From Thermodesulfobium sp. 4217-1 (lineage in GTDB: Bacteria; Thermodesulfobiota; Thermodesulfobiia; Thermodesulfobiales; Thermodesulfobiaceae), in NCBI RefSeq assembly GCF_039822205.1, contig NZ_JBAGBW010000042.1:1-6659 (forward strand): a stretch of DNA of 6,659 nt, read 5' to 3'. Below the pieces are notes generated by a model. The model had not been told where the DNA came from and ran no database searches. It saw only the letters and a list, made by a program, of their open reading frames with translations. The number at the start of each line of letters is the position of its first letter. Positions within the stretch are counted from its first letter, which is position 1. Below, in pieces: positions 2,227 to 6,612 of this stretch. Made by a program: the position numbers and the translations under genes.

Positions 2227-3024
2227 ATGAATAAAAATTTTTACGATGAAATGCTAAACATAATTAATGATTATTTTGTAAAAAGGTCTTTTAAGACATG
2301 TTTACAATCTAGCCCTTTATTTTATCTTTTATTAAGAGGTATTAAATATTATGATGGGGTTACAACTATCGGAAAACAAAAACTCTACTTAGATGATATA
2401 TATATCACAAAATTATCAAAAGAAGATTATGAATCATTAGACGACATGGCTTTTAATAGTTTGATAAAAAAAGAACAATCAAGATGCTATACACAAGTTA
2501 AACAATTCTCAAAAATATTTATAAAAAGTATATTGGATGAAGTTTACTATAGCGCATTTCCACAAAAGATAAATAATTTTGATACCTATTCAAACGATAC
2601 AATTTTTATAAATTATAATTTAATAATATCTAACATAATGAGTGCAGCTAATAGCTTCGAAAAGATGAACGATATCTACCCATCATATTTATTATTGGGA
2701 ACAAATTTTTTCAACCTATTCATAGAATCACTTCCATCAAGAGATAATAGGTCTTATAATCCTGATATTAAAAACATCGGATTTGACAGCGTTTACCACG
2801 ATATCTTATTAATTATTCACGAACCAATGTGTCCAAACAATATTGGGTACTTTGTAATTCCAGATAAAATATTTTTAGCTACAACAGAATCTGTCAAATC
2901 CTATTCAGAGAGATTTTCTCCGTTTTTTGCATCATTTTCAAGCGATAAGATTTCTATTCGCTTTGGAGCTCAATTAATTTCTCAATCAAAATACTCCGTT
3001 CAGAAGATCGTCTTGAATTGCTGA
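2227..3024 (+). CDS. Orphan 265-residue protein, possibly with a capsid-like C-terminal half
   Basis: No family is recognised with certainty. The frame is long and unbroken, with normal amino-acid composition, no signal peptide and no membrane segment, so it is probably a real gene. The N-terminal third is helical and lysine-rich. From about residue 90 the order is a helix with QSRCYTQVKQF, a helix with IISNIMSAANSFEKMND (136-152), then PSYLLLGTNFFNLFIE. Next come GFDSVYHDILLIIHEPM, YFVIPDKIFLA and a last block with ISIRFGAQLI. This succession of helix, 'P-x-x-L-L-G', glycine-led strand with D-x-L, strand reporting a displayed value and final R-x-G strand recalls HK97-fold phage major capsid proteins and encapsulins, but this is inference without any diagnostic motif. 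No Shine-Dalgarno site precedes the ATG. It may be a phage-remnant gene or a lineage-specific cytoplasmic protein. Confidence 0.55.
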   Translation: MNKNFYDEMLNIINDYFVKRSFKTCLQSSPLFYLLLRGIKYYDGVTTIGKQKLYLDDIYITKLSKEDYESLDDMAFNSLIKKEQSRCYTQVKQFSKIFIKSILDEVYYSAFPQKINNFDTYSNDTIFINYNLIISNIMSAANSFEKMNDIYPSYLLLGTNFFNLFIESLPSRDNRSYNPDIKNIGFDSVYHDILLIIHEPMCPNNIGYFVIPDKIFLATTESVKSYSERFSPFFASFSSDKISIRFGAQLISQSKYSVQKIVLNC

Positions 3025-3344: not shown

Positions 3345-3779
3345 TTATATGATATGTTCAAGAATGCCTTTTTCTAACATAGCTAAATTAAATAAATAGT
3401 CGTTATGATCGAATGTTTCTCTAAGAGGTTTAATTGTATTTCTCCAACCATAACCGTCTGTAATCCAAATAAATTTATATTTATCATTTAAAACATCAAA
3501 TAAATTTCTATATTCACCAGCTGTTGACTTTAATTTTGAACCGCCTCCACCATAAAAATTAGATTCTATAATAAAAAGCTCTCTGCCATTATCAATCACA
3601 AAATCATATCTTCTTGAAGATTTATCAACTGGAACATCATAAAATGCTTCTACAATGTTTTCCATAATATTCCCACCACAATTTTTTCTGCCGTTACTAT
3701 CCAAACCTGCTTCAACCTCAACCATGTAATCAACTAAATTTTTAATATTTTTGTTCACTATTAAATCTTTTAAACCAGT
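3345..3779 (-). pseudogene. DpnII/MboI-family type II restriction endonuclease, truncated remnant
   Basis: The frame (GTG at 3758, 137 residues) matches the C-terminal half of DpnII-type endonucleases, which cut GATC and are about 280-290 residues long. Seen: NLVDYMVEVEAGLDSNGRKN, MENIVEAFY, RRYDFVI, FIIESNFYGGGGSKLKSTA, FIWITDGYGW and LRETFD. RRYDFVI and IESNFY hold the D and E-x-N of the PD-(D/E)xK-like catalytic core. Family likeness continues upstream of the GTG for seven codons (TGLKDLI) to a TAA at 3780-3782, so about 120 N-terminal residues are gone. Between MENIVEAFY and RRYDFVI only about ten residues remain where DpnII has about fifty, so an internal segment is probably lost too. 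It follows the methyltransferase by about 40 bases, as dpnB follows dpnA. It is almost surely inactive. Confidence 0.85.
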
Positions 3780-3821
3780 TTATTTGACAAAAATAAGAAA
3801 TTTTATAGGGTTATTTTTAAT

Positions 3822-4250
3822 TTAAGACCAAGACACATTGCTTGGCTTTAAATTTTGGATTAAAAAATTAAAAACTTCATCTTCAGTATTACAATTTAGT
3901 TCTTCTTTATAAAAATCTAATTGTTTTATACTACAAGCTTTGTCTGTAGTGAAAGGATCCAAAATTACATCTCCCTCATTTGTACTTGCTAATATTATTC
4001 TTTTAAGCAAGTCAAAAAGGCTTTTGTGTTGGATGCTTTCCAAATTTTTTTCGATTGGTTTTAATGTATTAATCAACCAAACAGATCTCATTTGCATACC
4101 CGGTTTTTTTAACTGATCTTCGCTCCAATCGCCATTTTTCATTAAATCATAATTGAAAGTGTGCTTTGCTTTTTTGTCTTTTCTGGCCCAAAGCAAAGTC
4201 TCGTGGCTAGCTGTAAAAAACGACATGATAAATTTGGAGATGCATTAGGC
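3822..4250 (-). pseudogene. C-terminal half of a beta-class DNA methyltransferase (M.DpnA-like), broken
   Basis: The open frame is 3822-4226, but likeness to the family continues upstream in another frame: KPNASPNLSCRF is encoded just before, ending in a run of six T (4215-4220), where one lost T explains the shift into FTASHETLLWARK. The start at MSFFTASHE is therefore an artefact. The recognition-domain region NYDLMKNGDWSEDQ and MRSVWLINT follow. Then the frame reads NLESIQHKSL where the family has KFGKHPTQKP; that motif is present one frame over (4019-4044), between a T7 run (4045-4051, plus strand) and an A5 run (4014-4018). After LLKRIILASTNEGDVILDPFT the text jumps to TDKACSIKQLDFY: the glycine-rich SAM-binding motif I (F-x-G-S-G-T) and some 25 residues are missing. 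It cannot be active. Confidence 0.85.
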
Positions 4251-4622
4251 TTAAACATTTAGAAAATGAAAATTATTAATTTCTAAAGCGAAACCGCATT
4301 GATAAATAGAATGGTATGTTCCACTAATCCAAATAGTTCCATTAGTTTTCAAAACACGCCTACAAGTCTTTATCCATTCTACATGAAATTCAAAGTTTTC
4401 TTTCGTGCAATTTGATAAATCCCAATCACCTTTTTTTACGCTTACCATCTTTCCATTTTGACAAGTAAAGCTACCGCTAGACAAAAAATATGGTGGATCA
4501 GCAAAAATCATATTTTTAGAGTTTTTTGGCAAAGTGTTTAAAATTTCCAACCAATCTGCATGATATAGTTTAAATCCGAATTTTTCATGATAAATCTGTT
4601 TCAAATAACACCCCATTTTCAT
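4251..4622 (-). pseudogene. N-terminal half of the same beta-class DNA methyltransferase, with DPPY motif
   Basis: These 123 residues carry the catalytic motif IV DPPY (42-45) in IFADPPYFLSSG, preceded by LYHADWLEIL and followed by KGDWD, WIKTCRRVLKTNGTIWISG and HSIYQCGFAL, all as in M.DpnA and related adenine methyltransferases. DPPY ahead of motif I defines the beta class. The frame ends in FHFLNV and a TAA at 4251, where homologues continue with D-I-x-W-x-K-P-N. The K-P-N is found just after the stop in another frame, and the spacing suggests that about 11 bases were deleted near 4256. In the Dpn system the partner enzyme cuts GATC, and the remnant of such an enzyme lies just downstream, so GATC is the likely former target. 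No dpnM-like first methyltransferase is seen. The start lacks a clear Shine-Dalgarno site; residues M1 or M3 could serve. Confidence 0.85.
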
Positions 4623-4748
4623 AGCATATTGTTTTACAATGCTTATTATTATATCATTTCTGTAGCACGATTAAATAAATTTTGATATAAAGAAAAATTT
4701 TTTTACAAAAATTGATTTCAATGATCTAACAAAAGCTCTTTTATTGTT
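4623..4748 (-). promoter_or_regulatory. Spacer with probable promoter of the methyltransferase remnant
   Basis: On the minus strand a perfect TATAAT (4648-4653) is separated by 16 bases from TTTAAT (4670-4675), a poor -35. Transcription would begin near 4641, about 19 bases before the ATG at 4622. The 126 bases hold no other recognisable signal, and no strong terminator is seen after the nuclease gene upstream, so read-through from that gene is also possible. Confidence 0.35.
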
Positions 4749-5846
4749 TTACTGAATTTCTATCTTTAAATCACTATCTTTATAACCAAACAACGTTATT
4801 ATATCTTTTGATAACTTAACTATACTATTAGCGCTAAGGTTTGTCTCAAGGTAAATATCTGTTCCACTTATTCTCTCTGGTTTTCTAAGTTCATCTAATT
4901 TGCTAGAAAAATATGGTCTTTTTGTGCCATGCAAATCAAGAACATAGTTAAATTGGTCTTTGTGCTTAGATAAGATAATTTCACATAGTTTTACTATCAG
5001 CTCTTTCCATGAACGCAATGAATATTTAACGCCTTTAAAAGAAAAGGAAATAGGCTTTTTTCCACTGTATTGATTAGAAACTGAACTATCACTTTTTTTA
5101 TGCATAGACTTTATTTTTGTTGGCACATATATATTTTCGGTTTTTATTTCCTCTTGAGAAATTCTTGTTAAAAACTGTTCTACTGTTTCACTATCCGGCT
5201 TATATCCGCACAATTTCTCTGTTTCGTCTGCTAAAAGCTCAATTAAAAGTTCATCCGGATCAGTTATTATTTTGTTCCATGCTTTTGGAAGCGTAGTATT
5301 AATCAAATTTTGTTTTTCTTTGTTATAATAAATTTCCTTGGCATATTCCAAAGATTTGCCAGAAACTACATTATCTTTGGATAAAAGCTTTTCGAATTTT
5401 TCAACTACAACTTTATCTTCTTGTTCGTATATTTCAATGGTATAAAATTTTCTTTGAGCCCAACTTCCCTCTCCTGAAGGCAAATAAAACCACCAACTGA
5501 TTCCATTTGTTAAAACTGAAAGCCCCACTCCCTCTTGAAAAGAGTAATTTAAAAGCTGCTCCTGGTGCTGATCCAAATCTTCATTAATCTTTTTTACTTC
5601 AATAAAAACCTTATTTTTCTTGTTAGATCTTAATGAGTAATCAACTCTTTTATCATTAACAGAGTATTCAGGGAAAACGCTTTCTATGTCAAACACATTC
5701 CATTTTAAGGCATTAAGTATTGGTAAAATAACACTTTGCTTGGTAGCCTCCTCGTTCAACAACCTCTGTCTGCCATCTTTTTTAAGCTCTCTTATAAAAT
5801 CCAACAACTTTTTATTGATTTCTTGCTCTGATATTGCATCTGGCAT
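4749..5846 (-). CDS. HsdR-N family PD-(D/E)xK nuclease, apparently intact
   Basis: This 365-residue protein has an N-terminal nuclease domain like the N-terminus of type I restriction subunit HsdR. Residues 32-49 (EEATKQSVILPILNALKW) are the leading helix, D69 sits in KRVDYSL, and VFIEVKK carries E83 and K85. QLLNYSF and LSVLTNGISWWFYLP follow, the usual strand after the Q-x-x-x-Y helix. A middle helical region of about 150 residues leads to a C-terminal domain (about 265-365) with FKGVKYSLRSWKELIVKLCE, KRPYFS, GTDIYLETNLSANSIVKLS and a final LFGYKDSDLKIEI; this domain is shared with other restriction-associated proteins. No helicase motifs exist, so it is not a full HsdR. All catalytic residues are present and the frame is clean. 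I prefer the ATG at 5846 over the GTG at 5855 because AGAGGTGG lies five bases upstream of the ATG. Its partner and target are unknown; it may act in defence on its own. Confidence 0.8.
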   Translation of the reverse strand: MPDAISEQEINKKLLDFIRELKKDGRQRLLNEEATKQSVILPILNALKWNVFDIESVFPEYSVNDKRVDYSLRSNKKNKVFIEVKKINEDLDQHQEQLLNYSFQEGVGLSVLTNGISWWFYLPSGEGSWAQRKFYTIEIYEQEDKVVVEKFEKLLSKDNVVSGKSLEYAKEIYYNKEKQNLINTTLPKAWNKIITDPDELLIELLADETEKLCGYKPDSETVEQFLTRISQEEIKTENIYVPTKIKSMHKKSDSSVSNQYSGKKPISFSFKGVKYSLRSWKELIVKLCEIILSKHKDQFNYVLDLHGTKRPYFSSKLDELRKPERISGTDIYLETNLSANSIVKLSKDIITLFGYKDSDLKIEIQ

Positions 5847-5912
5847 AAAGACCACCTCTTTAAACTATTTTTTATAACTACATCATAAAGTTAAATTTAT
5901 ATTTTATCTAAC

Positions 5913-5993: not shown

Positions 5994-6334
5994 TTAAAGT
6001 TTCTCACAAACTAAAACAATTAACTTTTCTATAACTTTATTGAATTCTTCGGATGGCAACTTGTAAATAAATTTGATTTTTGCTTTCCAATCAAGACTTT
6101 TTACTTGGTAAAATAATATCGCACCTTTTACTTCAATAATTTCATCAGGAATTAATACCTCAAATGGATAACCTTTTTTTGATTTGTTATCGGGCAAAGA
6201 ACTGCTAATCTAACTTTACCATTATAAGCTTTTGGAGACAAAACCAAAGCTGGTCTATAACCTGCCTGCTCATGTCCAGTTTGTGGGTTAAACATGATCC
6301 AAATAATGTCTCCTTTATCTGGAATATATTCCAT
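5994..6334 (-). pseudogene. mazF: MazF toxin (sequence-specific mRNA endoribonuclease), frameshifted
   Basis: The first frame (6152-6334) begins MEYIPDKGDIIWIMFNP, matching E. coli MazF (YVPDMGDLIWVDFDP), and keeps the active-site neighbourhood EQAGYRPALVLSP and LCPITNQ, with the catalytic Arg and Thr. It then runs off frame into VIHLRY and a stop. The second frame (5994-6197) continues the family with KKGYPFEVLIP and QVKSLDWKAK to a normal end. The switch lies in a run of seven A on the minus strand (6174-6180); one more A would give CPITNQKKGYPFEV and a 113-residue protein, against 111 in E. coli. The second frame's own start would be a TTG inside the gene, so it is not a real gene. Without the second half no functional toxin is made unless polymerase slips on the A-run. 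Confidence 0.85.
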
Positions 6335-6346
6335 ATTTCATCAAAT

Positions 6347-6580
6347 CTAATTCCCTACAACAAAGCCCGTGTCAACTTCATGATGAATGTTGTTATCTGT
6401 GATGCCAGATAGTAGCTCATTAAGTGTCTAATCTGATTTAGAAATAGGCTTAATAACTATTTCGTTTTTTATTTTGCTTATTTCTACTAGAGACTTGTTG
6501 TTTAGCTGCATTTCAGAAGCAAGTGGTTTTGGTATTCTTATAACAAGACTATTGCCCCACTTTTTAACTTTTGCACGCAT
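6347..6580 (-). pseudogene. mazE: MazE antitoxin (AbrB-fold), interrupted by an in-frame TAG
   Basis: The ATG at 6580 is preceded by GGAGGC (6587-6592), six bases away. The first 50 residues, MRAKVKKWGNSLVIRIPKPL and on to IVIKPISKSD, match the swapped-hairpin DNA-binding domain of MazE (E. coli: VKRWGNSPAVRIP). A TAG at 6428-6430 interrupts the frame. Beyond it the same frame continues for 26 codons as TLNELLSGITDNNIHHEVDT and FVVGN to a second TAG (6347-6349); this matches the toxin-binding tail of MazE ([20 protein letters not shown]). Full length would be about 77 residues, near the usual 82. The stop removes the part that wraps around MazF, leaving at most a DNA-binding fragment that could still occupy its operator. 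It ends 12 bases before mazF. Confidence 0.85.
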
Positions 6581-6596
6581 AAAACTGCCTCCAATT

Positions 6597-6612
6597 CGTT
6601 TATACAAAAACG
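6597..6612 (-). promoter_or_regulatory. Possible mazEF operator (short inverted repeat)
   Basis: CGTTT and AAACG flank six bases just upstream of the Shine-Dalgarno site of mazE. MazE-type antitoxins commonly repress their own promoter through palindromes in this place. TTGAAG followed after 17 bases by TATCGT on the minus strand could be the promoter. Both are weak, and the window ends soon after. Confidence 0.25.

Follow-up and report, generated by a model that had tools for sequence, protein, structure and literature searches.

An out-of-frame HPTQKP motif in the probable remnant of a DpnII-type restriction-modification operon of Thermodesulfobium

Introduction

Restriction-modification (R-M) systems turn over and are often lost (PMC4176335), and both the erosion of their genes and frameshifting within them have been described (PMC9465063). 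Among the known systems, DpnII-type R-M operons, which combine a beta-class methyltransferase with a PF04556 endonuclease, have the same gene order as the locus studied here, and their HPTQKP motif is alike at the DNA level; identity reaches 83% in the N-terminal part of the methyltransferase, and is 60-74% and 69-71% in the N-terminal and C-terminal pieces of the endonuclease, respectively. The difference is that both genes are broken here, whereas most of the homologues, which come from many candidate phyla, have full-length genes. The N-terminal half of the methyltransferase also matches the CcrM-like adenine methyltransferases (structure 6PBD; 1.7e-20), but the score is far below the CcrM cut-off and the gene lies beside the remnant of a DpnII-family endonuclease. 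The pseudogenised R-M genes of Mycoplasma agalactiae likewise display erosion of methyltransferase and endonuclease, frameshifts and gene transfer (PMC9465063), the present case differing in that a dead remnant is common to two species at near identity.

Results

The window is the whole stretch of DNA analysed, a contig of 6,659 nucleotides from Thermodesulfobium sp. 4217-1 (the host); its features are collected in Table 1. Homologues were drawn from 63 loci in public genomes, and five of these were used for frame-aware alignment.

Table 1. Remnants, lesions and neighbouring intact gene of the R-M locus, in window coordinates.
Feature	Position	Strand	Evidence
HSDR_N-domain gene, intact, in putatively exchanged block	4749..5855	-	DNA 100% identical in G001
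N-terminal piece of beta-class DNA methyltransferase, motif IV intact	4251..4622	-	PF01555 2.1e-13; PADLOC MTase_II 7.7e-36
Lesion 1: about 11 bases gone, two TAA in frame	4241..4256	-	alignment; also in G001
Lesion 2: frame change at T6 run (minus strand)	4215..4220	-	alignment; same run length in G001
Middle/C-terminal piece of methyltransferase, ending in LDPFT	3948..4226	-	PF01555 4.8e-14
Lesion 3: A7 run (minus strand; plus T7), entry into other frame	4045..4051	-	alignment, sequence
FGKHPTQKP encoded out of frame, main frame NLESIQHKSL	4019..4044	-	frame-aware alignment, sequence reading
Lesion 4: T5 run (minus strand; plus A5), return to main frame	4014..4018	-	alignment, sequence
Lesion 5: methyltransferase cut after LDPFT, joins endonuclease start	3930..3948	-	alignment
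Endonuclease residues 1-35, DpnII-family; usual start Met replaced by Ile	3825..3929	-	60-74% identity to homologues
Lesions 6 and 7: about 91 codons lost, stop right after SWS; nonsense TAA at 3780-3782	3780..3824	-	
C-terminal remnant of DpnII-family endonuclease	3349..3803	-	PF04556 1.5e-45
Lesion 8: 26-codon in-frame loss within endonuclease C-terminal remnant	~3641/3642	-	

An earlier note on this DNA had proposed that a conserved motif of the methyltransferase is moved out of frame by a pair of opposite one-base slips while the net frame is restored, and alignment with the homologues agrees. Both homopolymer runs lie exactly where that note had put them, and the two readings that it gave proved exact when checked: minus-strand frame 0, the main frame, reads PIEKNLESIQHKSLFDLL around the motif, and the neighbouring minus-strand frame reads KKFGKHPTQKPF and then TGA, so that HPTQKP is absent from the translated frame of the methyltransferase and is found in the other frame only. 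In the frameshift-aware alignment, which had been suggested as a check, four of the five homologues place the frame changes at the two runs, -1 at A7 and +1 at T5; for the fifth the first change comes 6 bases before this, on the border of the A7 run. Nearly all the intact homologues read carry GKHPTQK(P/S) in frame, and among those whose reading spans this position none has NLESIQHKSL. By our own estimate the chance of finding nine consecutive family residues in another frame is ~20^-9 per position and, judged from the letters of the DNA, the occurrence of FGKHPTQKP out of frame at the correct alignment position is far beyond what chance would produce.

This observation is incomplete, since larger lesions flank the motif. 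At least eight lesions are distributed over the methyltransferase and the endonuclease, two of them common to a second species of the genus. While the opposite slips, the displaced motif and the restored frame stand as described in the earlier note, its view of a region that would otherwise be called intact does not, given an 11-base deletion, two TAA codons, the loss of the SAM-binding motif and C-terminus of the methyltransferase, and a broken endonuclease. The N-terminal piece, which is 80-83% identical to the closest homologues, retains motif IV (DPPY) in frame as ADPPYFLSSG. In the alignment to homologues HFL is not followed by the NDIAW of the family, and the gene has no single uninterrupted frame, the two TAA codons separating its halves; the frame is regained at FFTASHETLLWARK by the second change, at the T6 run. 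Similarity to the family ends after LDPFT, with GSSTTG (motif I) and approximately 55-60 C-terminal residues missing. By assignment from beta-class enzymes, we take GSSTTG, within DPFTGSSTTG, to be the SAM-binding motif I. With two upstream TAA codons and the SAM motif deleted no active enzyme is expected, and where HPTQKP lies is without consequence once a gene has neither SAM motif nor open frame.

The same losses bear on two readings in which the slips would be functional. Programmed double frameshifting, -1 at A AAA AAT and +1 at UUU UGA C, would yield the full motif, and the exit site resembles the +1 site of prfB, as A AAA AAT does a weak -1 heptamer; since the motif is in frame in homologues, and an active enzyme is ruled out by the two TAA codons and the deleted SAM motif, we regard the probability of this mechanism as practically nil. 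It is also extremely improbable that the gene is a phase-variable methyltransferase with homopolymer length as its switch: the tracts are short, two of them must change together, and the 11-base and larger deletions are irreversible, even though homopolymer switches have been described for phase-variable methyltransferases (PMC9465063). Loss of the SAM motif and of the open frame excludes both as functional routes.

A DpnII-family endonuclease begins past LDPFT, where the frame reads IKQLDFYKEELNCNTEDEVFNFLIQNLKPSNVSWS. This second gene is not full length either, having lost about 91 + 26 codons in addition to carrying a nonsense codon, which sits at a glutamate of its relatives; its C-terminal piece is the one with 69-71% identity to homologues. 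The PF04556 remnant adjoins the methyltransferase on the same strand, in the order seen in other loci (L005, L010 and others). Because in homologous loci the endonuclease lies 3' of the methyltransferase on the same strand, the remnants are best read as those of a decayed two-gene operon, with a beta-class N6-adenine methyltransferase first and the DpnII-family endonuclease second.

All the methyltransferase and endonuclease remnants (3345-4622) lie in one minus-strand frame, despite at least five potentially frame-shifting lesions. Under naive random decay such an arrangement has a probability of ~1% (1 in 100), a figure that comes from a post hoc count over a frame interrupted by stops; it counts against naive random decay and, being post hoc, carries no weight.

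In a search of the genus one further genome with the methyltransferase gene was recognized (G001), a finished genome consisting of a single contig of 1,774,794 bases. Positions 4190-4314 are 98.4% identical to it without gaps, and within them both the deletion of 11 bases and the T6 run agree letter for letter. An independent genome thus confirms lesions 1 and 2, the second being a homopolymer slip. The rest of the methyltransferase and the entire endonuclease are deleted in G001, where the DpnII endonuclease has no match at all; the A7/T5 stretch is among the parts absent, and confirmation by the second genome covers lesions 1 and 2 only. The G001 copy is a true pseudogene, more eroded than that of the host, and the existence of a more eroded copy in a related species argues for ordinary gene decay.

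The two genomes also share a block, 4494-5886, which is 99.8% identical and gap-free (99.6% over 4486-5886 with looser settings). Its three differences all fall between the two genes, and the HSDR_N gene, of 368 codons, is the same base for base. By comparison, identity between host and G001 is ~80% across the 144 kb of sampled sequence that aligned, none of the aligned stretches of at least 500 bases in this sample lies above 95.6%, and directly beside the block the identity is only 76%. Given near identity of the block against this genome-wide average, the simplest reading is a recent exchange, in which an already dead R-M remnant would have passed between two species. Neither of the two remaining genomes of the genus has the block, and no relatives of the HSDR_N protein were found in viral contigs. 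Tentatively, the dead remnant may have been exchanged as a passenger of HSDR_N, a putative stand-alone defence gene under putative selection. This suggestion agrees with a block that is nearly identical where the average is ~80%, and we hold it to be possible and somewhat short of an even chance.

The A7 and T5 slips could, in principle, be sequencing or assembly errors within an otherwise decayed gene. Both are one-base differences in homopolymer length, they are located on a short contig of 6,659 bases and where G001 is deleted, hence without direct confirmation by the second genome, and a contig-specific base-call problem would be possible, seeing that the MazF gene, on this contig too, breaks at an A7 run. 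Against this explanation, G001 bears out the T6 slip in the methyltransferase gene, and all 22 homopolymers of at least 5 bases in the block adjoining the slips have the same length in that independent genome, in a gap-free alignment. As a control we used 169 G001 proteins whose full length could be followed in a single frame within the sampled stretches of the host assembly, mostly on long contigs, with just 17 matches from short ones: no frameshift was observed in these 169 conserved genes (46,789 codons), although their ~129 kb of conserved coding sequence contain 1,154 homopolymers of at least 5 bases, 103 of them of at least 7. A high rate of homopolymer error is not a property of the host assembly. 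Overall, with two neighbouring lesions common to G001 and no frameshifts in the sampled host genes, the read error implied by the earlier note is disfavoured, and we consider it unlikely. Since frameshifts are absent from these 169 conserved host genes, it is most likely that the slips at A7 and T5 are genuine and neutral mutations of a dead gene.

Other genes of the window and the host were also inspected. The MazF-like gene (5994-6334, minus strand) lies in two frames, split at an A7 run at ~6174-6180, and its MazE partner (6428-6607) looks whole; a further genome, G003, holds an intact MazF with no DNA similarity to the window. A 265-aa protein encoded at 2227-3024 on the plus strand, with no matches in Pfam, NCBIfam or PADLOC, adjoins a PocR-domain gene in both the host and G001. 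A second methyltransferase locus (C48/C105) was considered broken and then rejected as such, as no stop interrupts its longest frame across the methylase motifs and the breaks look like search artefacts. The host bacterium has dsrA, and a stop reported in this gene as an internal break was rejected on reading, because it is not internal.

Discussion

The locus is very probably a pseudogene, the decayed form of a DpnII-type two-gene R-M operon, in which, we infer, the A7 and T5 slips are slippage events fixed by drift. Along this path an R-M operon would have been acquired and then inactivated, with the common lesions in place before the exchange with G001 at the latest, and would have drifted thereafter. 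The two slips would have arisen by ordinary strand slippage after the death of the gene and been fixed by drift, and the net frame would have been regained by chance and without function; for the host, the order in which the lesions arose is one that we infer. Ordinary gene decay, rather than a functional gene in disguise, is what is seen here.

In a dead gene it is no surprise to meet compensating slips close to a conserved motif, and the lesions that surround such a motif ought to be read before either a hidden gene or a sequence error is called. The locus offers a snapshot of the decay of an R-M system, in which the same dead block is found in two species at two stages of erosion.
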